Below are positions 28,079-43,508 of a DNA stretch of 44,081 nt, piece after piece. The translations under genes were made by a program, and so were the position numbers. The DNA is from Paracoccaceae bacterium (GTDB lineage Bacteria > Pseudomonadota > Alphaproteobacteria > Rhodobacterales > Rhodobacteraceae), in the NCBI GenBank assembly GCA_009773055.1, contig WOUW01000035.1, positions 1-44,081 on the forward strand, read 5' to 3'. The notes under the pieces were generated by a model. That model did no database searches and was not told the DNA's origin. It saw only the letters and a program-made list of their open reading frames with translations. Within the stretch, counting starts at the first letter, position 1; every line of letters starts with the position of its first letter.

Positions 28079-28918
28079 ATGGACCCCCTCCACCACCTCC
28101 CCCTCGCGGAAATCGACCCCTCCGCCCTCCTCCGCGACCGCACCACCCTCGACCCCGAGGCCCTCCAACAACTCCAGCACTCCATCGCGACCGAGGGCCT
28201 CCGCACCCCCATCGAGGTCTGGCGCCTCTCCAGCCCCAGACCTTCCGAAAACCGGGACACCTACACCTACGGCCTCATCTCCGGCCTCCGCCGCCTCACC
28301 GCAGCCCGTGACTTGGGCCACCAAACGATCCCCGCCTTCCTCCGCTCGCCCCAGTCCCTCGCCCAGGCCCTCACCGCCATGGTGACCGAGAACGAAATCC
28401 GCGCCCCCGTCAGCCCGTGGGAGAAGGCGACCCTCATCCTGAACGCCGTGACCGAGGGCCACTTCGATACCCCCGACGCCGCCATCGCCACCCTCTTCCC
28501 CAGCACGTCCCGCTCCTCCCGCCAACGCCTCCGCGCCCATGCGACCGTGGTCGAGGCGCTCGGCCCCCTCCTCACCGCCCCCGAAACCCTGACCATCCGC
28601 CAACTCGACACCCTCGCGGCTGCGATCACCGGCGGGCATGAGGACCTCCTCACCGCCACCCTCCACCCGCACGTGGGGAAGGGGCCAGAGACCCAATGGT
28701 CCGCCCTCCGCCCCGTCCTGCTGGATATCGCGCGCGAGCCCGTGAACCCCACCACACGCCGCCCCCGCAGGCTGCTAAGGTTGCGTCAAGGCCTGACGAT
28801 CACCCGAGAGCCCACCCCCACCGGCTGGCTCCTCCGCTTCACCGGCCCCCAGGCGAGGTCGCCCGGCCTGATCGACGACGTGCTGGACAAGGTGGAGGAG
28901 TGGTTCAACAAACCCTGA
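28079..28918 (+). CDS. ParB N-terminal domain protein, orphan
   Basis: A 279-residue protein. The ParB/sulfiredoxin-type N-terminal domain covers about residues 1-110 (LPLAEIDPSALL, then TEGLRTPIEVWRL, GLISGLRRLTAARDLGHQTIPAF, AMVTENEIRAPVSPWEKA). The GLRRLTAA segment replaces the canonical GERR nucleotide-binding motif. A helical middle with SRSSRQRLRAHATVVEAL follows. No ParA or parS-like cluster is near, so it is not an ordinary partition gene; regulatory or plasmid-derived roles are possible. I chose ATG 28079 because AAAGGAG lies upstream. Codon use is extreme, with unusually many CTC and CCC codons. Confidence 0.8.
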   Translation: MDPLHHLPLAEIDPSALLRDRTTLDPEALQQLQHSIATEGLRTPIEVWRLSSPRPSENRDTYTYGLISGLRRLTAARDLGHQTIPAFLRSPQSLAQALTAMVTENEIRAPVSPWEKATLILNAVTEGHFDTPDAAIATLFPSTSRSSRQRLRAHATVVEALGPLLTAPETLTIRQLDTLAAAITGGHEDLLTATLHPHVGKGPETQWSALRPVLLDIAREPVNPTTRRPRRLLRLRQGLTITREPTPTGWLLRFTGPQARSPGLIDDVLDKVEEWFNKP

Positions 28919-28961
28919 CCCCCACCCCACCGTAGGGTGCGCTACAGCGCGCCATCCGTAC

Positions 28962-28979
28962 GTCGGGCTTCAGCCCGAC
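28962..28979 (+). terminator. GTCGGGCT/AGCCCGAC hairpin after the ParB-like gene
   Basis: An 8-bp perfect stem with a 2-base spacer, followed by TCTTCC. Just upstream (28937-28955) a second imperfect hairpin pairs GGTGCGCT with AGCGCGCC. Together they form a compact 3' element between the ParB-like gene and the AT-rich ATPase gene. They may be REP-like rather than a classical terminator. Confidence 0.5.
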
Positions 28980-29052
28980 TCTTCCCAGCCCGATTGACTT
29001 GCCGCTTTCCGTATATACTCTGAGAGAAAGAGATTTCTATCTAGGACCGGTC

Positions 29053-30876
29053 ATGTACCTATCAGCGGTAAGCATATTAAATACTGGCCCAATTGCCAAC
29101 GTGAGGATAGACACCAAGTTCGCCGAAGACGGTAGCCCACTTCCGGTAATCTTGGTAGGAAAGAACGGCGCAGGAAAAAGCATTGTCATTTCGCACATCG
29201 TGAACGCGTTAGCAACTGCCCAGTCGGTATTCTTTGAGGATTCAGATGTGGAGCAAGGTCGCGTCTACAAACTGAGAAGCCCATCTTACATCAGGGAAGG
29301 ATCCACCTACTCCATAGGTGAGGTCAGGTTCACTGGCGGCGCTAAAGTAGCTGAAATACAACTTTCAACTCGGAAGCGGGACTTCATCGGTGAGCCTCCA
29401 AGCTATTCGAGTTGGTCTAGTGTTTTGGAAATGGAAAGCTCCCACTTCGATACTAACATTTCTCGCAACTCTTCCGATGTTCATTCTGCGTTGCTTGGTG
29501 GCATCTACCTATACTTCCCGCCAAATAGATTCGAAGAGCCAGCTTGGCTAAATGAAGTAGCTCTTCGAGGGAAAGTTGACTTTTATCGGATGAAAAACTT
29601 CTCAACCACATCTGATAGGAAGTTGGTTCAATACTCGCCGCTCAAGGGAATTCAGGACTGGTTACTAGACCTAATCTATGACAGTTTTGCAGTTGAGCGA
29701 AGGACGACAACACTGCCTGTTCAGTTTGATGGTAAGGTACAGAATTTTAACGTTCTTGTGGCTAGAACTGGCCCTGCAACGAGCCTTCTCAGTGCTGTAG
29801 AATCTGTTGTGCTTACACTACTTGGTGCGCCAGGCGGAACTATCCAGTGGAATGTCGGGATTAGAAATCATAGAAATGTTGGACTTACCCTAAATGGTCC
29901 GAACGGAGATGTGAGACGTATTTCAAACCTCTTTGCTCTATCTACCGGTGAATCGGGCTTGTTAGACTTGTTTCTGAGTATACTTCGCGATCTCGACTTC
30001 AGTGGAATGCATTTTTCATCATTTAGGGATGTAAAGGGTATCGTAGTCGTTGATGAAATTGATCTCCACCTTCACGCTGATTTTCAATACAATACTTTGC
30101 CGGCGCTTCTCAGACTTTTCCCGTGCCTACAGTTCATTGCTTCGACTCATTCACCACTTCTACTCTTAGGGCTGAACGCAGTATTGGAATCCAAAGGATT
30201 CCAGTTGATCGATCTGCCGTCGGGAGAGGAAATTGCTGTAGAAAGCTTTACGGAATTTGAGTTCGCCTTTCGTGCCATGCAGGATACGATAGCGTTTGAG
30301 AGCGCGGCCAGACAACTTTCGGCAGATCAAGGCAAGGGAATACTCTTTGTTGAGGGTGACACTGATGCTCTGCTTATTCGACGTGCCGCGCAGCTTCTCC
30401 TAGAAGAGCCGCTGCTTGAGGCATTTGAGGTTGTCGGCGTTGAAGGATGCTCATATCTTGACAAGCTTTGGAACGCTCATAGCGCCAAACTTAATCAAAG
30501 AATTTTAAGTCCGTGGATTCTACTCTACGATTGTGATACCAATAAGCAACCTACTCAGGTTGGTCAACTCTATAAGAGAGCCGTTCCGCGCCAACAATCT
30601 TGCATATGGACGGGAATCGAAAACCTATTTGATAGGCATTTCGCGGAGCGCGCACGCGAGCATAAGCCAGACTTCTTCGATATCGTGGAGGCTCATACAA
30701 AATGGCCAAAGGGGCAGAAGGTTGAAGTTCCGGAGGTATGGACGGTCAATAGGGACGAAAAGATGAAATTCTGCAAGTGGGCTTGCGAGAATGGAACCGC
30801 AGACGACTTTCGCCATTTTGCCACAATCTTCGCAATGCTTAGGGAGATTACTGGTCAAGCTGCAACCTCTCAGTGA
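29053..30876 (+). CDS. OLD-like AAA ATPase with TOPRIM nuclease domain, probable defence gene
   Basis: A 607-residue protein unrecognised beyond its domains. An ABC-like ATPase core has Walker A VGKNGAGKS (residues 35-43), a signature-like ALSTGESGLLDLFLS near 295 and Walker B GIVVVDEIDLHLH near 335, then ASTHSP (switch His). A C-terminal TOPRIM-like domain follows, with LFVEGDTDALLIRRAAQ (Glu, about 431) and the acidic pair in LLYDCDTN (about 490). This order matches OLD-family nucleases and GajA; no UvrD-like GajB partner is adjacent. ATG 29053 has AGGA 6 nt upstream. The gene is conspicuously AT-rich and rich in rare codons relative to its neighbours, a sign of recent transfer. It ends 26 nt before a 75-bp repeat. 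Confidence 0.8.
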   Translation: MYLSAVSILNTGPIANVRIDTKFAEDGSPLPVILVGKNGAGKSIVISHIVNALATAQSVFFEDSDVEQGRVYKLRSPSYIREGSTYSIGEVRFTGGAKVAEIQLSTRKRDFIGEPPSYSSWSSVLEMESSHFDTNISRNSSDVHSALLGGIYLYFPPNRFEEPAWLNEVALRGKVDFYRMKNFSTTSDRKLVQYSPLKGIQDWLLDLIYDSFAVERRTTTLPVQFDGKVQNFNVLVARTGPATSLLSAVESVVLTLLGAPGGTIQWNVGIRNHRNVGLTLNGPNGDVRRISNLFALSTGESGLLDLFLSILRDLDFSGMHFSSFRDVKGIVVVDEIDLHLHADFQYNTLPALLRLFPCLQFIASTHSPLLLLGLNAVLESKGFQLIDLPSGEEIAVESFTEFEFAFRAMQDTIAFESAARQLSADQGKGILFVEGDTDALLIRRAAQLLLEEPLLEAFEVVGVEGCSYLDKLWNAHSAKLNQRILSPWILLYDCDTNKQPTQVGQLYKRAVPRQQSCIWTGIENLFDRHFAERAREHKPDFFDIVEAHTKWPKGQKVEVPEVWTVNRDEKMKFCKWACENGTADDFRHFATIFAMLREITGQAATSQ

Positions 30877-30902: not shown

Positions 30903-30977
30903 CCCTTAACAAACCCCTAACGCCCACAGCTAACCCCTTGGAATCCTTTGCGGCCTCCACCTGCCCACGCGTGGGCA
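30903..30977 (+). repeat. 75-bp dispersed repeat, copy A
   Basis: This 75-bp segment matches the reverse complement of 40641-40715 at 73 of 75 positions. It contains the perfect palindrome CTGCCCACGCGTGGGCAG (30961-30978) at one end and a TTAACAAACCCCTAAC segment at the other. It lies between the stop of the OLD-like ATPase (30876) and the stop of the slyX remnant (30984-30982), with the palindrome on the slyX side. Confidence 0.9.
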
Positions 30978-30981
30978 GACC

Positions 30982-31127
30982 TCACCAGTGCGGCGGGCGG
31001 ACGTTCGCTTCCGGGGGGGCTCCCCCCAAAGCCTCCTCCCCGCCTGACGGGCCACCACGTCCGACAGGTCCTCCACCGCCCGCATCAGGTGGGCCACCCG
31101 TTCCTCCAGAGCCTCGACCCGGTCCAT
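30982..31127 (-). pseudogene. slyX: slyX remnant, frameshifted
   Basis: From ATG 31127 the minus strand encodes [20 protein letters not shown] and continues [10 protein letters not shown], the typical amphipathic N-terminal half of SlyX. The frame then leaves the family. One base shifted, the strand reads EEALGGAPPEANVRPPHW and stops at 30982, and the RPPHW end is the hallmark SlyX C-terminus. A single missing G in the GGGG run near 31037 would restore a 48-residue protein, still shorter than the usual 65-75 residues. So the middle is also shortened or the copy is decaying. It diverges from hisS. SlyX function is unknown. Confidence 0.7.
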
Positions 31128-31197
31128 CGCACCCCCCGCTTGCCCGCCTGCTTCCCACGGGATACACGGACCCCGATCAAAAGCGAAGGTCCCGCCC

Positions 31198-32667
31198 ATG
31201 GCCGACAAACCCCGCCGCCCCCGCGCCGAGACCCCGAAGGGATTCCGCGACTACTTCGGGGCCGAGGTCACGATGCGGAAGTCCATGCTCGACCGCATCG
31301 CCGCCGTCTACCACCGGTACGGGTTCGACCCGCTGGAGACCTCGGCCGTGGAAACCGTCGAGGCCCTCGGCAAGTTCCTCCCCGACGTCGACCGCCCCAA
31401 CGAGGGCGTCTTCGCCTGGCAGGATGAGGACGCCGACTGGCTGGCCCTGAGGTACGACCTCACCGCCCCCCTCGCGAGGGTCGCCGCCCAGTACCGCAAC
31501 GACCTCCCCTCCCCCTACCGCAGGTACGCGATGGGCCCCGTCTGGCGGAACGAGAAACCGGGGCCAGGCCGCTTCCGCCAGTTCTACCAGTGCGACGCGG
31601 ATACGGTGGGGTCCAGTTCCGTCGCCGCCGACGCCGAAATCTGCGCCATGCTGGCCGACGCCCTGGAAGAAGTCGGCATCCCCCGCGGCGACTACGTGGT
31701 GAAGGTGAACAACCGGAAAGTCCTGAACGGCGTGATGGAAGTCGCGGGGCTGGCCGGAGATGACAAGGAGGCCGAACGCGGCATCGTCTTGCGGGCCATC
31801 GACAAGATCGACCGTCTGGGGCCGGAGGGCGTGCGCGCCCTCCTCGGCGAGGGCCGCAAGGACGAGAGCGGCGACTTTACCAAAGGGGCGGGGCTTTCGG
31901 AAGAGCAGGCGGAGGTCGTCATGGGCTTCACCACGGCCAAGCGCGACACCGGGACCGCGACGGTGGCCCGGTTGCGGGAACTCGTCGCTAGTTCGGTCGT
32001 CGGCGCGGAGGGTGTCGACGAACTTGAAGGGATTGCAGAACTTCTGGACGCACAGGGCTACGGCCCCGACCGCATCGTCATCGATCCCGGCGTCGTCCGG
32101 GGCCTCGGTTACTATACCGGCCCGGTCTATGAGGCGGAGCTGACGTTCGAGATCCTCGACGAGAAGGGACGCAAGCGTCAGTTCGGCTCGGTCGCCGGGG
32201 GCGGGCGGTATGACGGCCTCGTGAAGCGATTCACCGGGCAGGACGTGCCGGCGACGGGTATTTCTATCGGGGTAGACCGGCTGCTCGCCGCGCTGCAGGC
32301 CAAGGGGCGCGTCGAGGGCGAGACGGCGGGGCCGGTGGTGGTGACGGTCATGGATCGCGACCGGATGGCCGACTACATGGCCATGGTCGGCGAACTGCGT
32401 CAGGCAGGGATCCGGGCGGAGGTCTATCTGGGGAACCCGAAGAACTTCGGCAACCAGCTGAAATATGCCGACAAGCGGCAGTCCCCCGTCGCGGTCATCC
32501 AGGGCGGGAACGAGGCTGCGGCAGGGACCGTCATCCTGAAGGACCTGATCCTCGGCGCGAAGATCGCGGAAAGCGCCACGCTTGAGGAATGGAAGGACCG
32601 CCCGGCCCAGGTCGAGGTTCCCCGTGGCGATCTTGTGGCCGCAGTCAGAAAGATGCTTGGCCAATGA
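31198..32667 (+). CDS. hisS: Histidine--tRNA ligase
   Basis: A 489-residue class II aminoacyl-tRNA synthetase. It has motif 2 [26 protein letters not shown] (about residues 106-130), the HisA-type motif [14 protein letters not shown] near 300 and motif 3 [17 protein letters not shown] and [14 protein letters not shown] near 330-365. A C-terminal anticodon-binding domain (VVVTVMDRD, then [30 protein letters not shown]) ends it. It charges tRNA-His with histidine. It is longer than the E. coli enzyme (424), as in many alphaproteobacteria. It overlaps hisZ by ATGA, so translation of the three his genes is coupled. Confidence 0.96.
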
Positions 32668-33758
32668 CCCCGAAGGCCGCGATCCGGGCCGAGGGAGAGC
32701 GGCTGCTGCAGGCCTTCGTCCAGGCGGGCGCAGTGCCGGTGGAAGCCGAAATCCTGCAGCCCGCCGGAACGCTGTTGGACCTTTACGGCGAGGATATCCG
32801 GGCGCGTGCCTATGTGACCGCCGACCCGGTGCGCGGCGAGATGATGCTGCGGCCCGATTTCACCGTGCCTGTCGTCCAGGCCCACATGGCGCATGGAGCG
32901 GAACCGGCGCGCTATGCCTATCTGGGTGAGGTGTTCCGCAAGCAGATGCGCGGCTCGGGGCGGACCAGCGAGTATCTGCAGGTGGGGTATGAGGTCTTCG
33001 ACCGGGCTACGCCGGAGGCTGCGGACGCCGAGGTCTTTGCGTTGTTTCGTGACCTTCTGACCGGGCTGAACCTGCGCCCGGTGACGGGAGATATCGGTAT
33101 CCTGATGGCGGCTGTCCGGGGGCTGGAGACATCGGACAGCCGGAAGGCGGCCCTGCTTAGGCATGTCTGGCGGCCCGTGCGGTTCAAGGCGCTTCTTGAC
33201 AGGTTTGCGGGACGGGCTCCGGTTCCCGCGGGGCGTCTGGCGCTGCTGCAACGGCTGAAGGCAGGGACGCCGATGGCACTGATCGAGGAGGCGGGGACCT
33301 TCGTCGGGCTGCGCAGCCCGGAGGAAATCGCCGAGCGGGCCGAGGCCTTGGTGGCCGATGCCGAGACGCCGCCGATCAAGGCGACCGAGGCGGCGCTGCT
33401 GTATGACTTGCTGTCGCTGGAGGCTCCGGCGTCCCATGCGCTCAGCCATTTGCGGGGTATCACCCCGATGCTGCCCGCGATCGGCCCGGCGGTGGACCGC
33501 TTTGCGACGCGGCTGGCGGCTTTGGCGGCTCGGGGCGTGGATGTGGCGACGCTGGCCTTCGAAGCGAGCCATGGGCGGACGGCGCTGGAATACTATGACG
33601 GGTTCGTCTTCAGCTTCCTGAAGGACGGGATGCCCCCCGTAGCTTCTGGCGGACGGTATGACGCGCTGACGGCGGTGCTGGGTGCGGGTGCCTTCATCCC
33701 GGCGGTGGGCGGGGTGATCCGGCCCGGCCTCGTGGCGCGGCTGAAGGGGGCGATATGA
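32664..33758 (+). CDS. hisZ: ATP phosphoribosyltransferase regulatory subunit
   Basis: A 364-residue HisRS paralogue. It keeps class II-like fold segments ([41 protein letters not shown], and the C-terminal [12 protein letters not shown]) but lacks an anticodon-binding domain and is not a tRNA synthetase. It combines with the short HisG below to form the hetero-octameric enzyme of the first histidine-synthesis step and supplies histidine feedback control. ATG 32664 overlaps the hisS stop and its own stop overlaps hisG (both ATGA). Confidence 0.93.
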
Positions 33759-34453
33759 TCCGGGTGGGTGTGCCGTCCAAGGGGCGGCTGATGCAGGACT
33801 GCTTTGACTGGTTCGGCGCGCGCGGAGTGGTGATGCGGCGGACGGGTTCGGACCGGGAGTATTCCGGCGTTGTGGAAGGCGTCGAAGGTGTGGTTCCGGT
33901 GTTGCTGTCGGCGGGCGAAATCCCGCGTGAGCTGGCAGCGGGGCGCATCCATCTGGGGGTCACGGGGTCAGATCTGGTGCGTGAGCAACTGGGCGAAGAC
34001 GAGGTGGCCGAAATCGCGAAGTTGGGCTTCGGGCAGGCCGATCTGGTGATCGCGGTGCCACATGTCTGGATCGACGTCGAGACGGTGGATGACCTCGACG
34101 CGGCGGCTGCGGGGTTCCGCAAGGCACATGGGCATCGGCTGCGGATCGCGACCAAGTATCATCGGCTGGTGCGGGATTTCCTGCAGACCCAAGGGGTGGC
34201 GGACTATCAGCTGGTCGACAGCCAAGGTGCGACCGAGGGCACGGTGAAGAACGGGACGGCAGAGGCCATCGCCGACATCACCTCTTCGGGCGAAACTTTG
34301 CGGGCAAACCACTTGCGGATATTGAGTGATGGGCTGATCCATTGCAGCGAAGCGGTGCTATGGGCGTCGCGCGTGGCGGAGTGGACGGCGGAGGATCGTG
34401 CGGCCTTTGCAGGTCTGGCGTCGAAGCTTGGGGTTGCCGCGCAGCCCTTCTGA
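33755..34453 (+). CDS. hisG: ATP phosphoribosyltransferase, short form
   Basis: A 232-residue HisG catalytic subunit of the short (HisZ-dependent) type, lacking the C-terminal regulatory domain. It starts [20 protein letters not shown], has AAGRIHLGVTGSDLVRE near 60-76 and the PRPP-binding segment DSQGATEGTVKNGTAEAIADITSSGETLRAN near 150-181. It condenses ATP and PRPP. The short form fits the adjacent hisZ. The gene ends 21 nt from a convergent EamA transporter, with no clear terminator between. Confidence 0.95.
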   Translation: MIRVGVPSKGRLMQDCFDWFGARGVVMRRTGSDREYSGVVEGVEGVVPVLLSAGEIPRELAAGRIHLGVTGSDLVREQLGEDEVAEIAKLGFGQADLVIAVPHVWIDVETVDDLDAAAAGFRKAHGHRLRIATKYHRLVRDFLQTQGVADYQLVDSQGATEGTVKNGTAEAIADITSSGETLRANHLRILSDGLIHCSEAVLWASRVAEWTAEDRAAFAGLASKLGVAAQPF

Positions 34454-34474
34454 AGGCTGGGGTCAGACTCCACA

Positions 34475-35332
34475 CTACTTCCGTGCCAGAGCGACTCCGA
34501 TGCCGGCCAGTGCCATCCCGGCCCAGGCCAGCGGCGGCATGGCTTCACCAAGCAGCGGCCAGGCGAACAGCGCAGAAAGCGGCGGGACGAGGTAGAAGAG
34601 CGCCGACACGCGGGCGACCTCACCGGCGCGGATCATGGCCAGGAGAAGCGTAATCGAGATCAGCGAATTGCCGATGATCAAGTAGGCAAGGACCGCGAAT
34701 AGCTCGGGCGTCCAGTCGGCCTGAAGCCCTTCGGTCGCAAGGGCAAGCGGCAGGGTGAAGATGGCCCCCACGGCATACTGGATCAGGTTGGCAGGAACCG
34801 GATGGGTCGTGATGCCGAAGCGCTTTTCATACAGCGTGGCGGCGGTCATGCCGATCAAGCCGCCGACAGCTGCCAGCAGGCCCAAAGGCGGCTCATGCGC
34901 GATGCCAGAGCGGGCAAGGATCACAGTGACTGCTCCGCCAAGACCAAGGGCAAGGCCGATCCAGCGTAGGCGGCTGACGGTTTCGCCTACCATCCAGGGG
35001 GCAATCAGGCTGACTAGGATCGGCTGCAGGCAGACAATGATTGCCACGCCACCCGCCGAGACGCCGGACTTGAAGGCGATGTAACACAGCCCGAAGTAGC
35101 CGACCTGAATCAGGAAGCCGGTTACCGCAATGTCCAATGCGGCGCGGCCCCGGGGGAACTGCGGTTTCAGAAGGGGGATGAGCGGGAGAAGGACGAGGAC
35201 CGCGATGGAATAGCGGAGCGCCAGGAGCGTGAACGGTCCAGCATGGAGGAGGCCGATCTTGGCGATGGCAAAGCCGGCGGACCAGAGCAGGAGAAAGATG
35301 AACGGTGCAGCGAGGAGGAGGGGGCGGGACAT
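34475..35332 (-). CDS. EamA/DMT family transporter
   Basis: A 285-residue inner-membrane protein with ten hydrophobic helices in two EamA repeats. The first helix is AAPFIFLLLWSAGFAIAKIG (about residues 8-27). The second repeat begins near ANLIQYAVGAIFTLPLAL. The conserved WSAGFAIAK and PPLSALFAWPLLGEAMPPLAWAGMALAG segments are typical. DMT transporters export metabolites such as amino acids; the substrate is unknown. It is transcribed leftward, convergent to hisG. Confidence 0.9.
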   Translation of the reverse strand: MSRPLLLAAPFIFLLLWSAGFAIAKIGLLHAGPFTLLALRYSIAVLVLLPLIPLLKPQFPRGRAALDIAVTGFLIQVGYFGLCYIAFKSGVSAGGVAIIVCLQPILVSLIAPWMVGETVSRLRWIGLALGLGGAVTVILARSGIAHEPPLGLLAAVGGLIGMTAATLYEKRFGITTHPVPANLIQYAVGAIFTLPLALATEGLQADWTPELFAVLAYLIIGNSLISITLLLAMIRAGEVARVSALFYLVPPLSALFAWPLLGEAMPPLAWAGMALAGIGVALARK

Positions 35333-35406
35333 GATGCCCGTTCATGGCGGGTTTTGCGCGTGGGGGCCAGAGGGCGGTGCGGCTTGATGCCTTGAAGCGA
35401 GAGCTT

Positions 35407-35865
35407 TCACCCGTCGCGACCCGTGGGATATCTGGGGACCAGAATGCCAATTCCAATTGAATGGCCATTGTCGGTCAGTGGGTCGTCCTTGACGCGGCCT
35501 TTGGGAAGGTCGCGGGGACTCTCCTTCGGGTCGAGGTAGCGCCAGCCCTGGAAGGGGCGGCGGGGGGCGGCCTCGGTTCGGATGATCTCGGCATCGAGGA
35601 CCAGCGCACAGCGCGGGATCCCGTCGGCGAAAGTCACTTCCTTGAGGTCGACGAACCGCTGGCGGCAAAGGATCACGCCTTTGATGACCCAATAGAGCGA
35701 GCCGCCGTCCAGCAATTCGGCCTCACGCTTGGGCCACATGCGGGTAACGTGGATGGCACAGCCCTGGGGCCAATGTGGACGCTGGCTGATTTGCCAGTCG
35801 AGATGGTCTTCGACCGACTCGGAGCCGACGCTGAGTTTCAGAAGGTTGATCATGGGACGGATCAT
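35407..35865 (-). CDS. DUF1489 family protein
   Basis: A 152-residue alphaproteobacterial protein of unknown function. MINLLKLSVGSESVEDHLDWQ, then HVTRMWPKREAELLDGGSLYWVIKG and GWRYLDPKESPRDLP are typical DUF1489 segments, the last resembling RNA-binding-like basic/acidic loops. ATG 35865 has CAGG upstream; an alternative ATG at 35853 begins directly with MINLLKL and may be the true start. It diverges from nrdJ. Confidence 0.85.
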   Translation of the reverse strand: MIRPMINLLKLSVGSESVEDHLDWQISQRPHWPQGCAIHVTRMWPKREAELLDGGSLYWVIKGVILCRQRFVDLKEVTFADGIPRCALVLDAEIIRTEAAPRRPFQGWRYLDPKESPRDLPKGRVKDDPLTDNGHSIGIGILVPRYPTGRDG

Positions 35866-35934
35866 AGGGCCTGCAGCGGGGGCTTCAAGTTGACCAGAGG
35901 GGGGCAGGGGCGTATCTTGGGTCCTTCGTCCCGC

Positions 35935-35943
35935 TTATCCACA
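35935..35943 (+). promoter_or_regulatory. Consensus DnaA box upstream of nrdJ
   Basis: TTATCCACA is the perfect 9-mer DnaA box, centred 27 nt upstream of the nrdJ ATG. DnaA boxes in front of ribonucleotide reductase genes couple dNTP supply to replication initiation in E. coli and Caulobacter. One 9-mer can arise by chance, so position gives most of the weight. Confidence 0.5.
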
Positions 35944-35965
35944 AGAGACAGAAAGATTCGCCCCC

Positions 35966-38065
35966 ATGTCGCGATTCGACACCCCCATTGCCGAGCAGAT
36001 CTGGGATATGAAGTACCGCTTCAAGGAGGCGGACGGGACACCAATCGACGGCTCGGTCGAGGACACCTGGCGGCGCATCGCGCGGGCTTTGGCAGAGGTC
36101 GAGACGGACCCTGTGAAGTGGGAGACCGAGTTCTACGCGGCGCTTGAAGGCTTCAAGTTCCTTCCTGCCGGGCGGATCACGGCGGGGGCGGGGACGGGGC
36201 GGTCGGTCACTCTCTTCAACTGCTTCGTCATGGGGACGATCCCCGACACGATGGTCGGCATTTTCGACGGGCTGAAAGAGGCCGCGCTGACCATGCAGCA
36301 GGGCGGCGGGATCGGCTACGACTTTAGCACCATCCGCCCGCGCGGGGCCGAGGTGAAGGGCGTCGCGGCGGATGCGTCGGGGCCGCTCAGCTTCATGGAC
36401 GTCTGGGATGCGATGTGCCGCACCATCATGAGCGCTGGTAGTCGCCGGGGCGCGATGATGGCGACGATGCGCTGCGATCACCCGGATATCGAGGCGTTCA
36501 TTGAGGCCAAGCGCGACCCGGCGCGGTTACGGATGTTCAACCTGTCGGTGCTGGTGACCGATCCCTTCATGGCAGCCGTCAAGGCCGACGGCCCGTGGGA
36601 GCTTGTGTTCGGCGGCCGCGTCTACAAGACGGTTGAGGCCCGCGATCTCTGGAACCGGATCATGCGCTCGACTTTCGACTATGCCGAGCCGGGGGTGATC
36701 TTCATCGACCGCATCAACGCGATGAACAACCTTGGCTATGTCGAGACCATCGCAGCGACGAACCCCTGCGGCGAACAACCGCTGCCGCCCTATGGTGCCT
36801 GCCTTCTGGGCTCGATCAACCTGCCGACGCTGGTGAAGGACGCCTTCGACGCCCATGCCTCAATGGACATGAAGGCGCTGGACCACCTGGTTCGCACCGC
36901 CGTCCGGGCGATGGACAACGTGGTCGATGCCTCACGCTTCCCGTTGCCGGAGCAGCAGGCTGAGGCCAAGGCCAAGCGGCGGATTGGGTTGGGGGTCACG
37001 GGGCTGGCGGACGCCCTTCTGATGGTTGGCCTGCGCTATGGGTCTGAGGAGGCCGCGAAGGTCACCGAGCTTTGGATGCACGCCATCGCTCGGGCGGCCT
37101 ATCTCGCCAGCGTCGATCTGGCGAAGGAGAAGGGTGCCTTCCCGCTGTTCGACGCCGACGGCTACCTTGCCTCGGGCAACATGGCCCAGATGGACAAGGA
37201 CGTCCGCGAGGCCATCGCCCAGCACGGCATCCGCAACGCCCTTCTGACCTCGGTCGCGCCCACCGGGACGATCTCCCTCTACGCCGGCAACGTCAGTTCG
37301 GGGATCGAGCCGGTCTTTGCCTATGCCTACACCCGCAAGGTCCTGCAAAAGGACGGCTCCCGCACCGAGGAGGAGGTCGTCGACTACGCCGTCCGCCTCT
37401 GGCGCGAAAAGCATGGCGATGCACCCCTGCCCGACCATTTCGTCAACGCCCAGACGCTGCCGCCGCTGGACCATGTCCGCATGCAGGCAGCGGCGCAGAA
37501 GTGGGTCGACTCGTCCATCTCCAAGACCATCAATTGCCCGGTCGACATCAGCTTCGACGACTTCAAAGAGGTCTACATGGCCGCCTGGGATCAGGGCTGC
37601 AAAGGCTGCACGACCTACCGGCCGAACGATGTGACCGGGTCCGTCCTGACGGTCAGCGAGAAACAGACCGCGCCCGTGTCCTCGCAGCCGGTGACGGGGG
37701 GCGAGGTGGTGTATCTGTCGGAACCGCTCGACCGGCCCGCAGCGCTGGAGGGGCAGACCTACAAGGTGAAATGGCCGGGCTCGGAGCATGCGCTTTACAT
37801 CACGATCAACGACATCGTGACGGCAGGCCACCGCCGCCCGTTCGAGGTGTTCATAAACTCCAAGAACATGGAGCATTTCGCCTGGACCGTGGCCCTGACC
37901 CGGATGATTTCGGCGGTGTTCCGGCGGGGCGGCGATATCTCTTTCGTGGTGGAGGAGCTGAAAGCCGTCTTCGACCCCCGCGGCGGCGCCTGGATGGAGG
38001 GCCGCTACATCCCCTCGATCCTCGCCGCCATCGGCGGGGTGATCGAACGCCACCTGATCCGGTGA
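35966..38065 (+). CDS. nrdJ: Adenosylcobalamin-dependent (class II) ribonucleoside-diphosphate reductase
   Basis: A 699-residue class II reductase. The catalytic barrel carries FLPAGRITAGAGTGRSVTLFNCFVM (first cysteine pair region, about 55-80), GGGIGYDFSTIRPRG, the radical-site NPCGEQPLPPYGACLLGSINL (about 270-290) and APTGTISLYAGNVSSGIEP (about 432-450). It makes deoxyribonucleotides with coenzyme B12 and needs no oxygen. The usual C-terminal zinc-ribbon/cysteine tail is missing from this frame and appears as a separate ORF 4 nt later. No cobalamin riboswitch is visible upstream. A DnaA box precedes the gene. Confidence 0.93.
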   Translation: MSRFDTPIAEQIWDMKYRFKEADGTPIDGSVEDTWRRIARALAEVETDPVKWETEFYAALEGFKFLPAGRITAGAGTGRSVTLFNCFVMGTIPDTMVGIFDGLKEAALTMQQGGGIGYDFSTIRPRGAEVKGVAADASGPLSFMDVWDAMCRTIMSAGSRRGAMMATMRCDHPDIEAFIEAKRDPARLRMFNLSVLVTDPFMAAVKADGPWELVFGGRVYKTVEARDLWNRIMRSTFDYAEPGVIFIDRINAMNNLGYVETIAATNPCGEQPLPPYGACLLGSINLPTLVKDAFDAHASMDMKALDHLVRTAVRAMDNVVDASRFPLPEQQAEAKAKRRIGLGVTGLADALLMVGLRYGSEEAAKVTELWMHAIARAAYLASVDLAKEKGAFPLFDADGYLASGNMAQMDKDVREAIAQHGIRNALLTSVAPTGTISLYAGNVSSGIEPVFAYAYTRKVLQKDGSRTEEEVVDYAVRLWREKHGDAPLPDHFVNAQTLPPLDHVRMQAAAQKWVDSSISKTINCPVDISFDDFKEVYMAAWDQGCKGCTTYRPNDVTGSVLTVSEKQTAPVSSQPVTGGEVVYLSEPLDRPAALEGQTYKVKWPGSEHALYITINDIVTAGHRRPFEVFINSKNMEHFAWTVALTRMISAVFRRGGDISFVVEELKAVFDPRGGAWMEGRYIPSILAAIGGVIERHLIR

Positions 38066-38069
38066 GGGG

Positions 38070-38219
38070 ATGGGGCTGAAGTCCGACCCCAAGGCGGAAC
38101 TGCTGCGGGTCGGAGAGGCTCCACGCGGCAAGGCCTGCCCGTCCTGCGGGAGCTATGACCTGCGGATGGTGGAGGGGTGCCTGACCTGTGGGTCATGCGG
38201 GCATTCGAAGTGCGGGTGA
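38070..38219 (+). CDS. Small zinc-ribbon ORF: detached C-terminal tail of NrdJ
   Basis: A 49-residue ORF starting MGLKSDPKAELLRVGEAPRG, then ACPSCGSYDLRMVEGCLTCGSC and ending GHSKCG. The CPSC...CLTC zinc ribbon plus terminal SKCG is what normally ends class II NrdJ proteins, where the last cysteines shuttle electrons to the active site. Here it begins 4 nt after the nrdJ stop in the +1 frame, with GAGGGG as a close Shine-Dalgarno. It is either a translationally coupled separate subunit or the result of a one-base frameshift in an originally fused gene. The sequence cannot decide. Confidence 0.75.
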   Translation: MGLKSDPKAELLRVGEAPRGKACPSCGSYDLRMVEGCLTCGSCGHSKCG

Positions 38220-38326
38220 GGGATGGGGGACGAAGTTGTGTCGGAATCTCTGTCAAGCGCGAAATATGGTGTCACGACCAAAGATTTCGTTTGAAAAGAA
38301 AAGGGCCAGCTATAAGCTGACCCTGT

Positions 38327-38399
38327 GGCCTAGTGGCAGAATGGTCATGCACCCGGGGTTGCAATCTGGGGGACGTCAGTTCGATCCTGACCTAGGCCT
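38327..38399 (+). tRNA. tRNA-Cys (GCA) with an enlarged anticodon arm
   Basis: The acceptor stem GGCCTAG/CTAGGCC pairs perfectly, as does the T-stem GTCAG/CTGAC around TTCGATC. The D-arm GCA...TGC is short, as is common in tRNA-Cys, and the discriminator is U. The anticodon arm reads CCCGG, GG, TTGCAAT, CTGGG. A normal 5-bp stem with 7-nt loop TTGCAAT would form if the two central Gs were absent, so the loop is 9 nt here. Reading UGC (Ala) with wobble pairs is possible but lacks the G3-U70 pair of tRNA-Ala. CCA is not encoded. A TATAAG at 38311-38316 is a likely -10. Confidence 0.75.
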
Positions 38400-38412
38400 C
38401 ACTTCTAACTAC

Positions 38413-38445
38413 GGCCCCGGTTTTCCGGGGCCTTTTCTTTTTCTC
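38413..38445 (+). terminator. Intrinsic terminator of the tRNA-Cys gene
   Basis: GGCCCCGG (38413-38420), loop TTTT, CCGGGGCC (38425-38432), then TTTTCTTTTTCTC. A textbook rho-independent terminator. The next 215 nt up to 38660 are lower in GC and contain no gene I can support. Confidence 0.92.
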
Positions 38446-38660
38446 ACTATGCCCAGTAGGTGGCGCAGATTCAACAAGAAATTACAACAGCTTAGCGCTG
38501 AGATTTTTCGAGTCCCGCCAATGGGTTAACTGGACCATGCCCCACTTTCCGCGATTCTGGAAAGCGATATTTCGTGATCGGGGCTCAGTTATCCCCCACA
38601 TTTTGCGGTTCGAAGCAGCGAATCGACTTGGGCTGCGTGGCAAGCTAGGCCTACAAAGTG

Positions 38661-39551
38661 TTAACGGGCCGTTACCCCATTCGCCCTTCCAACGAAATCC
38701 GTCAGGTGGGGCACATAGTCCTCTGGCCCCTCCCCTCCCTGCGCCACAGCCCCGGCAAAGCTGTTCTTCGCGGCACTCGCCATCGTGGTGGTGACGGTGG
38801 CGGCGTTGGCCATGCTCTCCAGATAGCGCAAGTCCTTGTAGGCGTTGGAGAGGGTGAAGCGGTGGGCTTCGCGGTTGCCCTCCAGCGCGTAGCCCATGAA
38901 GGTCTGGTAAAAGCCGCAGTCCATCCGGCCGCCACGGATCACGCTGTCGAACGTGGCGGTGGAGATGCCGACCTTGGCGGCCACGGCCAGCGCCTCCGCA
39001 TAGATCGCAGCGTAGCCGAGGGAGAGGAAGTTATTCAGAAGCTTCATCCGGTGGCCGTCGCCGACCCGGCCGATGTGGACGATCTTACCGGCCCAGGTGG
39101 CGATGACGGGCTGGATGCGTTGGAAGACCTCCGGTTCCGCGCCTACCATGCAGTCGAGCGTCCCCGCCCAGGCCTCTTTCGGCGTGCGGGAAAGGGGGGC
39201 GTCGGCGAAGTGGACGCCTTTGGCGGCCAGGTCGGTGGCGAGGCGTTCGGTGACGGTGGGGTCGGAGGTGGAGCAGTCGACGATCACCGTTCCGGGTTTC
39301 AGGTGGGGGGTCATCCTCGCCACGGCCTCGGCCACCTGCGGCGAGCCGGGGAGGGTGAGGAAGATGATCGTCGACCGGGCGGCGAGGTCTTCGATGGGCG
39401 CCTCGGTCGCGCCCCGGGTCAGCAGGTCATCGACGGGCGCGCGGTTGCGGTGGGCGGTGACGGTCAGGGGGTAGCCCTTCTCGACGATGTTCTTCGCCAT
39501 GCCGTGGCCCATCAGCCCGGTGCCGATGAAACCGATGTGTTCCTGGGTCAT
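38661..39551 (-). CDS. NAD(P)-dependent beta-hydroxyacid dehydrogenase (HIBADH family, second)
   Basis: A 296-residue HIBADH-family enzyme. It has the Rossmann motif IGFIGTGLMGHGMAKNIVEKG (about 6-26), FADAPLSRTPKEAWAG near 120 (family DAPVSGG is changed to DAPLSRT) and the catalytic-lysine segment GDGHRMKLLNNFLSLG near 168-183. ATG 39551 follows AAAGGAG; the longer frame would reach into the promoter of the divergent reductase. The SRT substitution and the KLLNNFLS helix suggest a subgroup different from the gene at 2771. The substrate is unknown. Confidence 0.88.
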   Translation of the reverse strand: MTQEHIGFIGTGLMGHGMAKNIVEKGYPLTVTAHRNRAPVDDLLTRGATEAPIEDLAARSTIIFLTLPGSPQVAEAVARMTPHLKPGTVIVDCSTSDPTVTERLATDLAAKGVHFADAPLSRTPKEAWAGTLDCMVGAEPEVFQRIQPVIATWAGKIVHIGRVGDGHRMKLLNNFLSLGYAAIYAEALAVAAKVGISTATFDSVIRGGRMDCGFYQTFMGYALEGNREAHRFTLSNAYKDLRYLESMANAATVTTTMASAAKNSFAGAVAQGGEGPEDYVPHLTDFVGRANGVTAR

Positions 39552-39646
39552 TGGAGTCTCCTTTGGGGCAGAGTGCGGCAGCGGCGTCGGGTTGACAATC
39601 CGGCTTCCTCGGGGACGACTGAGGCCGATCAAAAGGGAGGCCAAAG

Positions 39647-40636
39647 ATGTTCCGCGCACTGGTTCTGGAGAAGGAAGGCGAAATCGCCGTGGCCCGTCTG
39701 CGGGAGTTGGACGAGAGCGCGCTGCCTGCCGGCAATGTGAGGGTGGCGGTCGAGTATTCGACGCTGAACTACAAGGACGGGCTGGCGCTGTCGGCCAATG
39801 GCGGCGGGATCGTACGGGCCTGGCCGCATGTGGCGGGGATCGACTTTGCGGGGATGGTCGAGGCGTCGGACGATGCCCGCTACAAGCCCGGCGACAAGGT
39901 GGTGCTGACCGGCTGGCGGGTGGGAGAGGTCCATTGGGGCGGGTATGCCCAGAAGGCGCGGGTGAAGGCGGACTGGTTGGTGCCGCTACCCTCGGGTCTG
40001 ACCACGCGGCAGGCGATGGCGGTGGGGACCGCGGGGTTCACGGCGATGCTGGCGGTGATGGCGCTGGAGGAGCATGGGCTGACCCCGGAGAAGGGTGAGG
40101 TGCTGGTCACCGGGGCCTCGGGCGGGGTGGGGTCGGTGGCGGTCGCCTTGCTGGCCAAGCGTGGCTACCAGGTCGCGGCGGTGACGGGGCGGGCGGAGAC
40201 GGAGGGGTATCTGCGCGACCTCGGGGCCTCGCGGATCGTGGCCCGGGAGGAGCTGGCGGAGACGGTGAAGCGGCCCCTGGAGGCGGAGACCTGGGCGGGG
40301 TGTGTCGATGCCGTCGGGGGAGCGATGCTGGCCCGGGTGCTGGGGCAGATGAAGCACGGGGGGTCGGTCGCGGCGGTGGGGCTGGCGGGGGGATCGGCGC
40401 TGCCGGCCTCGGTCATCCCGTTTCTGTTGCGGGGGGTGAATCTGCTGGGGATCGACTCGGTGACGGTCCCGTTCGAGCGGCGGGTGGTGGCCTGGGAGCG
40501 GATCGTGACGGACCTGCCGATGGGGAAGCTGGATGCGATGGTCCGGGTGGCGGGGCTGGGGGAGCTGCCGGAGTTGGGGGCGGCGATCCTGAAGGGGGGC
40601 GTGCAGGGGCGGGTGGTGGTGGATGTGAACCGCTGA
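39647..40636 (+). CDS. acuI: MDR family reductase, acryloyl-CoA reductase (AcuI/YhdH) type
   Basis: A 329-residue zinc-free medium-chain reductase. It starts MFRALVLEKEGE, has the YhdH/AcuI-typical STLNYKDGLALSANGGGIVRAWPHVAGIDFAG (about 38-69), VLVTGASGGVGSVAVALLAKRGYQV for NADPH (about 148-172) and the C-terminal GGVQGRVVVDVN. AcuI reduces acryloyl-CoA to propionyl-CoA in 3-hydroxypropionate/DMSP metabolism in Rhodobacterales. AAAGGGAGG precedes the ATG. The stop is followed 4 nt later by repeat copy B. Confidence 0.85.
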   Translation: MFRALVLEKEGEIAVARLRELDESALPAGNVRVAVEYSTLNYKDGLALSANGGGIVRAWPHVAGIDFAGMVEASDDARYKPGDKVVLTGWRVGEVHWGGYAQKARVKADWLVPLPSGLTTRQAMAVGTAGFTAMLAVMALEEHGLTPEKGEVLVTGASGGVGSVAVALLAKRGYQVAAVTGRAETEGYLRDLGASRIVAREELAETVKRPLEAETWAGCVDAVGGAMLARVLGQMKHGGSVAAVGLAGGSALPASVIPFLLRGVNLLGIDSVTVPFERRVVAWERIVTDLPMGKLDAMVRVAGLGELPELGAAILKGGVQGRVVVDVNR

Positions 40637-40640
40637 GGGG

Positions 40641-40715
40641 TGCCCACGCGTGGGCAGGTGGAGGCCGCAAAGGATTCCAATGGGTTAGCTGTGGGCGTTA
40701 GGGATTTGTTAAGGG
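40641..40715 (-). repeat. 75-bp dispersed repeat, copy B (inverted relative to copy A)
   Basis: It is the reverse complement of 30903-30977 with two mismatches. The palindrome TGCCCACGCGTGGGCA (40641-40656) lies next to the acuI stop, and the TTAAGGG end (40709-40715) lies 12 nt from the stop of the restriction nuclease gene at 40728. The geometry relative to the core gene and the defence gene is the same as at copy A. Confidence 0.9.
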
Positions 40716-40727
40716 GAGCTCGGTTGG

Positions 40728-41570
40728 TCAAATAGCAAGGTCGAAAGGCAGATCTGCAATGTCGCGCAGCCTTTTGCCGTTGACCATGGTTTCAACCAGA
40801 TCCAGTGAGTCCCGCCCTTGTTCCTGCAGGACTTCGACAAGTTCAGGCAGAGCGAAATGGTAGACGCAGTCGATATCGCCGGTCCCGAGTGCAATTGCGG
40901 CTATCCGGGAGGGCGTGGGTTCCGCGGTAACGGCGACGATGTGCGGTGCGCGCCCTTTCCGGTTTCGCAGCAGGTTCAAGGCTTCTGACCGGGTGTTCTG
41001 TACCCGATCGGATCGGATGGTCAGCTTGCAACTGACCGAGGCGTGCAGCGAGGCTTTCGCACCGTTCGAGGCGCGGAGAGCTGTCCGTTCTGCAACACTT
41101 CTATCAACCAGGCCAGCATTTCTGTTGATTTCCGCATCTTCCAGGGCGTCCTTGATGACCACAACATCCGGCTTGATAAGGTAGTCGGTCCCGAGCAGGG
41201 TCTTGAGTTCGCGGCTTGCATCAGCGAGCACGCGGAGTTCGTCCAAATGTGCATACTGCTCGAACTGCGAGATTGTCCGTCCCTTCGCCACGCGGAACGT
41301 TCCCGGTCTGACATGCGCCAACTGGGCCAGGGACTCTTGAAGGAAGGCCAAGCAGACGTTTTCGAACATTGCACCGGCGGTCTGTCCCGGCGGCTTCTGC
41401 GCGTGGTCTGTCAACTGGCCTAGCTTGGCGATCAGGCCGATCGATATCTCGCGACTCGGTCCGTTAGCGACGTCCGCTATGCTTGGGACGCCTTTCGTCA
41501 TGGTGATCGGGCCCGAAAGACATTGCGCGTGAAATCTGCGGCGCGCCTCTTCGAACCAGACACCCATCAT
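40728..41570 (-). CDS. NgoMIV-type type II restriction endonuclease
   Basis: A 280-residue nuclease of the NgoMIV family, which cuts GCCGGC as a tetramer. The active-site pattern is intact: Glu70 in AGAMFE, Asp135 in KPDVVV, Ser180 and Lys182 in VSCKLTIRSDR, and Glu196 in NTRSEALNLL, 14 residues after the lysine as in NgoMIV (K187/E201 as I recall). RKGRAPHIVAVTAEPTPSRI and LGTGDIDCVYHFAL are strong family segments. It is translated from an ATG overlapping the methyltransferase stop. It ends 12 nt from repeat copy B. Confidence 0.9.
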   Translation of the reverse strand: MMGVWFEEARRRFHAQCLSGPITMTKGVPSIADVANGPSREISIGLIAKLGQLTDHAQKPPGQTAGAMFENVCLAFLQESLAQLAHVRPGTFRVAKGRTISQFEQYAHLDELRVLADASRELKTLLGTDYLIKPDVVVIKDALEDAEINRNAGLVDRSVAERTALRASNGAKASLHASVSCKLTIRSDRVQNTRSEALNLLRNRKGRAPHIVAVTAEPTPSRIAAIALGTGDIDCVYHFALPELVEVLQEQGRDSLDLVETMVNGKRLRDIADLPFDLAI

Positions 41571-42538
41571 GCCACCGCAAAAAGCCGACGCGCCGTGATC
41601 GCCGTGCGGACGCTGTCAGCCACAGCCTGTGCCACGGGCGGAGGGAAGGCGTTGCCAACCTGCCTGTAAGCTGCTGTCTTCTTGCCCGCAAAGGTCCAGG
41701 AATCAGGAAAACCTTGCAAGCGTGCAACCATCCGGACCGTAAGGCGCGGCATCCCCAAAAAGTCAGGCTCTGGTGCGTGTTCGGCAAGGCTTCCACCATT
41801 CACGCCAAGCGAGGCCCAGGCCTTTCTGGCGCGCGTCGGGCCAAGATCGGGCCCGCCATGTTTCTTGGAGCCGCCAACGATTGTCGGGGCAATTTCGTCG
41901 GCTTGGTCGCGCCACGTATCGGCAGCAGGCCAGTTGTTGGCCGACATCAGGTCGTAAAGGGTTTGGCCAACGGTCTTCGGGCGAGCCAGGTTTCTGGTCG
42001 GCCAAGCAAAACTGTCCGCGTAGGCGTCCTGGATTGCCACGATGACCACGCGCGGGCGGAGTTGCGGAACACCATAGTCGCTCGCATTCAGAAGTGCCCA
42101 TTCGACACGGCTGTATCCAAGCTTCCGAAGCTGTTCGCGGAGTTTGTGTCGGTAGTCCGTGAAGACAGCGTCGAGAAAGCCCCTGACGTTTTCCAACATC
42201 ACGGCCTTTGGTCGAACCTGATCGACAATGCGGATGGCCTCTGGAAAGAGGTCGCGTTCATCGGCCGGACCAAGTTGCTTGCCGGCGACTGAGAACGGGG
42301 GGCAAGGAACTCCCCCGGCAACAAGATCGACGCCTTTGTAGGGCGCGGCATCGAACTTCGTCAGGTCGGATTGCACACCTTCGATAACGTTCCAGTGCTG
42401 TCGGTTCAGTTTCAAGGTCTTGCGCGACCAGTCATCAATTTCGACCAATGCTTCATGACCAAACCCGGCGCCTTCAATGCCAAGCGCCTGCCCACCACCG
42501 CCTGCACACAGTTCAATCGACGAAAGGTGAGACTGCAT
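41567..42538 (-). CDS. DNA (cytosine-5) methyltransferase of the NgoMIV-type system
   Basis: A 323-residue C5-methyltransferase. Motif I SIELCAGGGGQALGIEGAGF is at residues 7-26, motif IV GGVPCPPFS has the catalytic Cys79, motif VI is MLENVRGF (Glu116), motif VIII QLRPRVVIV, motif IX RMVARLQGFPDSW and motif X YRQVGNAFPPPVAQAV. It protects the site cut by the partner nuclease, predicted GCCGGC. It comes first in the operon and overlaps the nuclease gene, so protection is made before or with cleavage. The gene's codon use is less GC-biased than that of the surrounding core genes, consistent with transfer. Confidence 0.93.
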   Translation of the reverse strand: MQSHLSSIELCAGGGGQALGIEGAGFGHEALVEIDDWSRKTLKLNRQHWNVIEGVQSDLTKFDAAPYKGVDLVAGGVPCPPFSVAGKQLGPADERDLFPEAIRIVDQVRPKAVMLENVRGFLDAVFTDYRHKLREQLRKLGYSRVEWALLNASDYGVPQLRPRVVIVAIQDAYADSFAWPTRNLARPKTVGQTLYDLMSANNWPAADTWRDQADEIAPTIVGGSKKHGGPDLGPTRARKAWASLGVNGGSLAEHAPEPDFLGMPRLTVRMVARLQGFPDSWTFAGKKTAAYRQVGNAFPPPVAQAVADSVRTAITARRLFAVA

Positions 42539-42887: not shown

Positions 42888-43508
42888 GTGACCAAACGCA
42901 CCTCTGCCAAGTACAAGATCGACCGCCGCATGGGCGAGAACATCTGGGGCCGTCCGAAGTCCCCGATCAACAAGCGCGAGTACGGTCCGGGCCAGCACGG
43001 CCAGCGCCGGAAGAACAAGCTGTCGGACTTCGGCACGCAGCTGCGCGCGAAGCAGAAGCTCAAGGGCTACTACGGCGACCTGACCGAAAAGCAGTTCCGC
43101 AAGATCTATGGTGAGGCCGAGCGTGTGCGCGGCGACACCGGCGAGATGCTGATCGGTCTGCTGGAGCGTCGCCTGGACGCGGTGGTCTACCGCGCCAAGT
43201 TCGTCCCGACGATTTTCGCCGCCCGTCAGTTCGTCAACCACGGCCACGTCCTGGTGAACGGCAAGCGCGTCAACATCGCCTCGTACCGGGTGTCGGAGGG
43301 TGATGTCATCTCGGTCCGTGAGAAGTCGCGGCAGATGGCGCTGATCCTGGAAGCGATCCAGCTGACCGAGCGTGACGTTCCGGACTACCTGGAAGTCGAC
43401 AACAACAAACTGACGGCGAAGTTCGTCCGCACCCCGGGCCTGGGCGATGTGCCCTATCCGGTCCAGATGGAACCGAACCTGGTCGTCGAATACTACGCCA
43501 AGAACTGA
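42888..43508 (+). CDS. rpsD: 30S ribosomal protein S4
   Basis: A 206-residue S4. The N-terminal domain is [16 protein letters not shown] followed by the [31 protein letters not shown] segment. The S4 RNA-binding domain is at about 95-160 ([35 protein letters not shown]). The C-terminus [15 protein letters not shown] is typical. It is a primary 16S rRNA binder in 30S assembly. The start is GTG 42888 with GAAGGAG 7 nt upstream. It is monocistronic, ending in a strong terminator. Confidence 0.98.

Follow-up and report, generated by a model that had tools for sequence, protein, structure and literature searches.

A gene-end repeat element at the inner border of two accessory-gene slots in an alphaproteobacterial genome

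The stretch of DNA analysed here (44,081 nucleotides of Paracoccaceae bacterium, contig WOUW01000035.1 of assembly GCA_009773055.1; hereafter, the window) carries two copies of a 75-bp repeat, each lying between the 3' end of a core gene, slyX or acuI, and a stretch of accessory cargo. The repeat belongs to a family of gene-end elements dispersed through genomes of the Tabrizicola/Rhodobacter group, and the two window sites qualify as accessory hotspots, with the same core borders, different cargo and, for acuI, an empty site in relatives. The explanation that we favour, with a confidence just short of even, is that of a genus-specific gene-end element, of which the copies bearing a segment here called module A, together with some other copies, form the inner border of interchangeable slots whose cargo is swapped as a block.

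The two copies lie at 30903-30977 (minus strand) and 40641-40715 (plus strand), inverted with respect to each other and identical at 73 of 75 positions. Both contain the 16-nt perfect palindrome TGCCCACGCGTGGGCA, and the best inverted pair found extends over 87 nt at 93% identity (30903-30989 and 40629-40715). Each copy can be divided into a hairpin, a module A and a tail, located at 30962-30977, about 30940-30961 and about 30903-30940 in the slyX copy (94 bits with a covariance model), and at 40641-40656, about 40657-40678 and about 40678-40715 in the acuI copy (93 bits). The palindrome stands 4 nt from the stop of the core gene at both sites, these stops being at 40634-40636 (plus) for acuI and at 30982-30984 (minus) for the slyX relic, and past the other end of the repeat come the cargo stops, that of an OLD-like open reading frame (ORF) 26 nt away (30876) and that of an NgoMIV ORF 12 nt away (40728). 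The element is directional: its hairpin end adjoins the core gene, and its tail end adjoins the cargo. A first-pass annotation of this DNA had described two inverted copies with a CGCG-centred palindrome end facing the core gene, and the same succession of core-gene stop, about 4 nt, palindrome, repeat, 12-26 nt and cargo stop at both sites; its coordinates, identity and order were all verified.

The core gene bearing the first copy at its 3' end is a relic of slyX (30982-31127, minus), and its description as a remnant is borne out by an internal deletion and a frameshift with respect to the intact genes of relatives, which encode 66-67 amino acids and in one relative match Pfam SlyX. The second copy follows an acuI-like Zn-dehydrogenase gene (39647-40636, plus; ADH_N/ADH_zinc_N), whose name is taken over from the first-pass annotation, and an acuI-like gene is present in 16 of 19 genus genomes (E<=1e-60). 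The cargo of the first slot, which is AT-rich (slot guanine-plus-cytosine (GC) content of 0.48, against 0.65 for the window), is an AAA/OLD-like (PtuA-like) ATPase gene (28999-30876, plus). The earlier label of OLD-like ATPase stands for the ATPase part, with AAA_21 matched above the cut-off, and less so for the rest, since the OLD TOPRIM match falls below the cut-off and the top PADLOC match is PtuA. This slot is bordered on its far side by a ParB-domain core gene (28079-28918, plus; Pfam ParB_N), which is the same slyX-locus neighbour in six relatives. The second slot holds an NgoMIV-family restriction endonuclease gene (40728-41570, minus), as had been annotated (NgoMIV_restric, Pfam E=1.5e-98; PADLOC REase_II, E=1.5e-88), and a C5-cytosine DNA methylase gene (41567-42538, minus; Pfam E=4.5e-66), likely the partner of the nuclease. 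Its far border is rpsD, encoding ribosomal protein S4 (42888-43508, plus; Ribosomal_S4, E=1.6e-25), which also lies beyond the cargo in relatives and has a conserved upstream region.

The repeat is not a product of chance, since the window genome, an assembly of 2.26 Mb and 59% completeness, holds 57 BLAST matches of the 75-mer (E<=10) and 68 matches to the covariance model, and 18 of the 19 genus genomes are positive by BLAST with the acuI copy. The first-pass annotation had proposed such a search of the genome and its relatives, and it was thus fruitful on both scales; the same query had no match in 12 genomes of the class from outside the genus. The covariance model, built from 32 copies and used to score at most 150 candidates per genome, recognises the element in 19 of 19 genus genomes, with 1-122 copies outside the window genome. 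In an order-wide sample it occurs in 14 of 244 genomes and 8 of 100 genera, all 14 genomes within one family, and the 33 stretches with the exact tail pattern are titled Tabrizicola, Rhodobacter, Fuscovulum and metagenome-assembled relatives, the named species with the tail motif including Rhodobacter calidifons and Tabrizicola thermarum. At the gathering score, Rfam recognises only a tRNA in the window, with the acuI repeat unmatched up to E=5, and plasmid records gave no match to the repeat. Searches of the titles and abstract openings of the open-access literature brought up no apparent description of this element, and a term search of PMC3733652 gave no hits. In one member of the genus, G013 (genomes are numbered in this way throughout), copies are very scarce (5 according to the model) and the acuI-rpsD junction, about 160 bp long, lacks the element; the family may therefore have multiplied within the genus.

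Read from the stop codon, the element consists of a few nucleotides, a near-perfect hairpin of 15-17 nt, a spacer of about 20 nt and a conserved tail of about 35 nt (CAAKGGGTTRGCTGTGGGCGTTAGGGRTTTGTTAAGG). In a subset of copies, module A (about GGTGGRGGCCGCAAAGGAYTCC) either occupies the spacer or stands ahead of the hairpin, being present at up to three mismatches in 33 of the 156 copies of the fetched loci. A sense gene lies upstream of 106 of these 156, with its stop within 30 nt in 95 of them (median 6); three copies are inside called genes, and of the 149 flanked on either side by called genes eight lie between divergent genes. In the 32 copies with 16-nt hairpins, covariation was detected both as doubly changed cells (25) and as a score, each beating 500 of 500 shuffles, and it was far lower in slid versions of the hairpin. 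The hairpin would putatively end or protect mRNA. Single folds suggested that the hairpin arm might pair with the tail motif GTGGGC; this was rejected, as such pairing is impossible in GCGCC-type copies.

For the acuI and slyX sites of relatives, 22 stretches with hisS or acuI were fetched. The common layout consists of the ParB-domain gene, cargo, the element followed by slyX, hisS, hisZ and hisG, and then, further on, acuI, the element, cargo and rpsD. Slots readable to both borders measure about 1.4-2.7 kb and have a GC content of 0.48-0.59, against 0.63-0.68 for the loci; the acuI slot of G001 exceeds 5 kb. Their content includes a BglII-like nuclease plus an MT-A70 methylase, PDC-S06/AAA_13, KilA-N/PDC-S13, a tyrosinase and matchless proteins, and no protein match between genomes was found among 28 cargo ORFs of the acuI and slyX slots. 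By eye, the DNA directly after the acuI element is alike in G001 and G010. At both sites the element tail is the inner boundary of the cargo. The earlier notion of the repeat as the 3' boundary of defence modules holds to the extent that the tail borders the cargo, although the element itself belongs to the 3' end of the core gene. Depending on the genome, the cargo reads toward the element or away from it, so that the shared orientation seen by the first-pass annotation in the window is not a general feature. It had also counted empty sites lacking the repeat as speaking against a hotspot; the empty acuI-rpsD site retains the element in G004 and lacks it in G013. The assembly of G005 contains two hisS-slyX loci (L062 and L063) with different cargo, which may reflect a strain mixture or contamination.

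In addition, 120 further stretches from G000, G001, G011, G015 and G018, all but one centred on elements, were fetched, and the loci were inspected for ORFs of at least 130 amino acids with a GC content of at most 0.575, here called AT-rich, with the tail and head sides defined as the DNA within 1.8 kb. Out of 57 AT-rich ORFs, 44 lie on the tail side (267 kb), none on the head side (254 kb) and 13 elsewhere (895 kb); 17 of the 44 belong to acuI/slyX loci and 27 lie outside them. An AT-rich ORF stands beside 16 of 87 operon ends bearing the element versus 14 of 338 element-free ends (p=3.4e-5), and the same comparison without the acuI/slyX loci gives 9/74 versus 6/266 (p=0.001). The first kilobase on the tail side has a GC content below 0.58 in 21 of 32 module-A copies versus 12 of 122 others (14/21 versus 8/114 without the acuI/slyX loci), and the first kilobase on the head side in none of 154 copies. 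Among orthologous gene 3' ends, those at element sites vary in 13 of 26 cases, those at mixed sites in 7 of 25 and those at element-free sites in 17 of 143, the corresponding figures for the mostly convergent ones being 11/19, 6/17 and 9/39.

A PADLOC match (E<=1e-8) is found for 10 of 20 proteins encoded in slots next to module-A copies, 2 of 14 beside non-A copies and none of 6 away from called elements, that is, 10/20 versus 2/20 for all others (p=0.014), in a sample comprising 18 of 26 AT-rich ORFs plus two for the first class, 13 of 18 plus one for the second and 6 of 13 for the third, where the proteins of the first tend to be longer than the rest. Without two assignments to the A type made by eye, the comparison gives 9/18 versus 3/22 (p=0.018). 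The matches include PtuA/OLD-like, NgoMIV, PDC-S06, AbiLi, a NucC-like nuclease, dGTPase, OLD/GajA, PDC-S33 (with a RelA/SpoT domain), PDC-M55C and HEC-09, while an alginate lyase, pentapeptide repeats, a colicin-E5-like domain and the BglII-like nuclease are among those with no PADLOC match.

Several observations weigh against the slot interpretation. The tail-side counts come from element-centred loci, a home-made gene caller and thresholds chosen while looking at the data. When only spacers of at least 700 nt are compared, element ends (16/27) and element-free ends (36/66) do not differ, in a comparison confounded by slot far-side genes being counted as element-free. Variable ends occur at 4/7 module-A sites and 9/20 non-A element sites, with 3/6 for convergent A sites against the 9/39 of element-free ones, and the GC effect is concentrated in A copies; foreign tail-side DNA is therefore tied to module A, and loss of synteny is not. 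Several acuI-site elements with cargo were scored as non-A, module A is not needed for variable slots, and cargo spots without any element exist. An antisense gene lies upstream of 49 of the 156 copies. As for the hairpin, two of the five covariation measures do no better than shuffles (pairs with double changes, 208/500; further pair types, 183/500), RNA folds of single copies do not surpass those of shuffles in strength, and a terminator scan that called 8 sites calls no T-tract terminator at the window copies. The sequence TTTT is present in some P4 copies (see below) of relatives. Most copies are ordinary gene-end elements.

The hairpin sequence, assigned with up to two mismatches to eight data-defined types, is specific to the genome. 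Type P1 (TGCCCACGCGTGGGCA) makes up 33 of 41 in the window genome, P3 (GCGCCGCGCGCGGCGC) 24 of 31 in G001, P2 (TGTCCACGCGTGGACA) 12 of 13 in G018 and P4 (TGTCCACGGTGGACA) 11 of 19 in G015, with G011 being mixed (P1 24/42, P3 13/42). Genome-wide exact counts, made in 17 genomes for P1, P3 and P4 and not for P2, agree with such dialects. P4 is abundant in G005 (75), G008 (74), G009 (75), G010 (96), G015 (63), G017 (52) and G016 (21), scarce in G018 (7), G012 (4), G003 (3), G004 (2) and G014 (1), and absent from G000, G001, G007, G011 and G013; P1 occurs in G000 (11), G011 (11), G001 (3), G014 (1) and G017 (1), and P3 in G001 (28), G011 (11), G004 (2), G009 (2), G000 (1) and G007 (1). Controls with reversed patterns gave zero except for one site. 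Orthologous sites of different genomes share the hairpin type in 22 of 117 pairs, many of them acuI and slyX sites, compared with 19.4% for random pairs between genomes and 1290 of 1929 for different sites within a genome; all 10 orthologous pairs of G000 and G001 differ. Conversely, tail identity is 0.80 between orthologues versus 0.72 within genomes. The hairpin thus forms a dialect specific to the genome and changing in concert, and the tail is inherited by site. Three hairpins of G011 (L146:6720, L168:5013 and L177:4854) are chimeric, combining the left arm of P3 with the right arm of P1, and look as if the arms had been replaced one at a time. It is unusual for a hairpin to change in concert at dozens of loci while the tail beside it stays with the site, and this points to a reader or a copying process.

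If blocks of DNA moved between species, a hairpin in the wrong dialect could mark an import. A test sample was made of 7 exact minority-dialect palindromes and 33 native P4 stretches, chosen by list order or contig-end distance and not by context; it included no minority copies of G001, G003 or G012, nor most of those of G018. Six of the 7 minority palindromes have an element, with module A in four of the six, and five have a readable tail side. The tail GC content is below 0.58 in 4 of these 5 versus 0 of 34 native palindromes (p=6e-5); of the latter, 29 with a recognised tail, none carries module A and two have an AT-rich ORF. The minority copies of G009 and G017 alone give 3/3 below 0.58. 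In the mixed genome G011, AT-rich ORFs accompany 7 of 13 P3 copies versus 1 of 24 P1 copies. A likely footprint of an import is found in G018, where the 3' end of a histidine-kinase gene with a P2 element is followed by 38 nt of the gene end repeated (97%), a P4 element bearing module A and a RelA/SpoT-domain gene, and G015 has the same A-P4 arrangement at the orthologous site. The duplicated gene end of G018, together with its element and cargo, is read as an imported block.

Other results detract from dialect as a tag. One of the four minority cases with a low-GC tail side has no AT-rich ORF, the controls come from other genomes, the G004 region in the test (L042) had been seen beforehand, and a main dialect is established for G009 and G017 and not for G004 and G014. 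When G000, G001, G015 and G018 are pooled, an AT-rich ORF is found at 3 of 14 minority-type and 18 of 80 native-type copies, so that native-dialect copies with cargo are common among high-scoring copies, and no difference in tail GC by dialect was seen in these four genomes where tested. Both window copies are in the native dialect, and a clean duplication was found only once. The evidence is mixed, and suggests that a wrong-dialect copy marks imported DNA in some cases without being a general rule.

GTTAGG-like letters invited a comparison with the attC cassettes of integrons, which have inverted core sites and an integrase; the motifs of the element tail are direct and not inverted. Rho-independent terminators resemble the element in having a hairpin a few nucleotides after the stop and in being rarely between divergent genes, a placement seen in 8 of 149 copies here, but the window copies have no T-tract and are not called by a terminator scan, and the element has its conserved tail. 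REP/BIME and RAYT repeats (PMC2817692, PMC8266576) are also intergenic, hairpin-forming, present in dozens to more than 100 copies and divided into genome-specific classes; unlike them, the element is not accompanied by a Y1 (HuH) transposase (PF01797 in 0 of 8 genus genomes; 5 of 14 control genomes positive), keeps a long tail while the hairpin changes, and mostly follows a stop directly in one orientation. The DNA uptake sequence dialects of Neisseriaceae (PMC3630211, PMC7371117) are likewise short motifs that are species-specific at many sites simultaneously, whereas the motif here is a hairpin tied to one element, and its half-arms are near the Markov expectation in the masked loci of five genomes. 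Core-gene-bounded hotspots and defence islands (PMC5635113) share the conserved flanks and the turnover of small accessory and defence genes, and differ in that the inner border here is formed, at many slots within one genus, by members of a defined repeat family. The element thus resembles REP repeats, terminators and uptake-sequence dialects, yet fails a defining test of each, because there is no Y1 transposase in the eight genomes searched, no T-tract terminator called at the window copies and no enrichment of half-arms in the loci of the five genomes.

The most serious competitor of the slot account is a passive gene-end mark, in which the element would be a transcription-end signal, cargo and rearrangement would simply be tolerated at insulated operon ends, and neither the element nor module A would act in exchange. 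We consider this possible, if somewhat doubtful. It would explain the ordinary copies between native genes, the variability of element-free convergent junctions, the lack of an element effect in the confounded comparison of large spacers, the independence of dialect and cargo in four of five genomes, and element-free cargo spots such as the tRNA-bearing spacer described below; it has difficulty with the excess of AT-rich ORFs at element operon ends over element-free ones, the concentration of the GC effect in module-A copies, and the duplicated gene end of G018, where a P4 element looks as if it had arrived with the cargo. The first-pass idea of an insertion hotspot or cargo-tolerant 3' element is right in that the cargo differs among genomes at both sites, and too broad in that most copies look ordinary. 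A preponderance of copies between ordinary genes had been named there as an argument against it, and is indeed what the 0/34 of context-blind copies with an AT-rich tail side shows, although element ends still exceed element-free ends.

A site-specific hotspot, with a recombinase or transposase recognising the tail or module A and inserting the cargo, is quite improbable: even though the slots are small and the cargo starts, by eye, about 0-10 nt past the tail end at acuI and slyX sites, no copy of the element or tail stands at the far slot end in the window and the 22 acuI/slyX stretches, no recombinase was found among 30 cargo-type proteins scanned with Pfam and 10 further AT-rich ORFs, and the Y1 transposase was not found in the eight genomes searched. 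The first-pass annotation had also suggested that the repeat could promote inversion of the 9.7-kb segment between the copies. We give very little credence to such a switch, flipping the slyX-acuI segment by homologous recombination. The joining of slyX-hisS to rpsD, elsewhere beyond acuI, in G014 and G018 speaks for it, but the G014 junction has no element. That of G018 (L073:5930-6260) retains an element and roughly the last 46 nt of acuI, while an intact acuI is found on a second contig and the ParB-domain gene on yet another. These junctions are rearrangements and not clean flips between repeats, and the relatives in which a far side can be read (G001, G004, G005, G007, G010, G011, G013 and G015) share the window order there. 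It is just as hard to believe that everything is explained by the mobility or the reader of a repeat resembling REP/RAYT elements or uptake signals, the link to cargo being secondary, since the high copy number, the palindrome and the genome-specific classes that this would account for are offset by the lack of a Y1 transposase in the eight genomes and of enriched half-arms outside elements, and by a tail inherited by site.

Returning to interchangeable slots, of which the window would hold two, from acuI to rpsD and from slyX to the ParB-domain gene, the exchanged block would consist of the core-gene 3' end, the element and the cargo, recombined between related species, with a congener as donor and the next core gene anchoring the far side. 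Gene transfer agents could be the means of delivery; a GTA_TIM gene is present in 10 of 11 genomes searched, and was not found in the incomplete window genome. A bolder version, which we consider unlikely, would make the element a species label, with a genome-specific factor reading the hairpin and keeping it uniform across dozens of sites, so that whole genomes would change dialect together and tails would stay in place, module-A copies serving as docking borders of a system by which species of the genus trade small defence modules, and wrong-dialect hairpins and duplicated gene ends remaining as receipts until rewritten to the local dialect. An element bordering such slots bears on the question of how small defence genes without mobility genes of their own move between chromosomes, and if the dialect tags the donor lineage in some cases, the exchange could be traced slot by slot.

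Two further features of the window deserve mention. GTAG-type palindromes (CGTAGGGTGCGCTACAGCGC... and GTAGGTCGGG-like) lie at 28930-28985, after the ParB-domain gene, and recur at the far slot ends of several relatives, though no Y1 transposase was found in the eight genomes. A tRNA (38327-38399) is located within the spacer 38066-38660, between a ribonucleotide reductase gene and a dehydrogenase gene, and the same spacer contains an AT-rich ORF in G007, G013 and G015, encoding an Mrr-like nuclease in the last, always without the element; the tRNA-bearing spacer is thus a third, element-free accessory spot.

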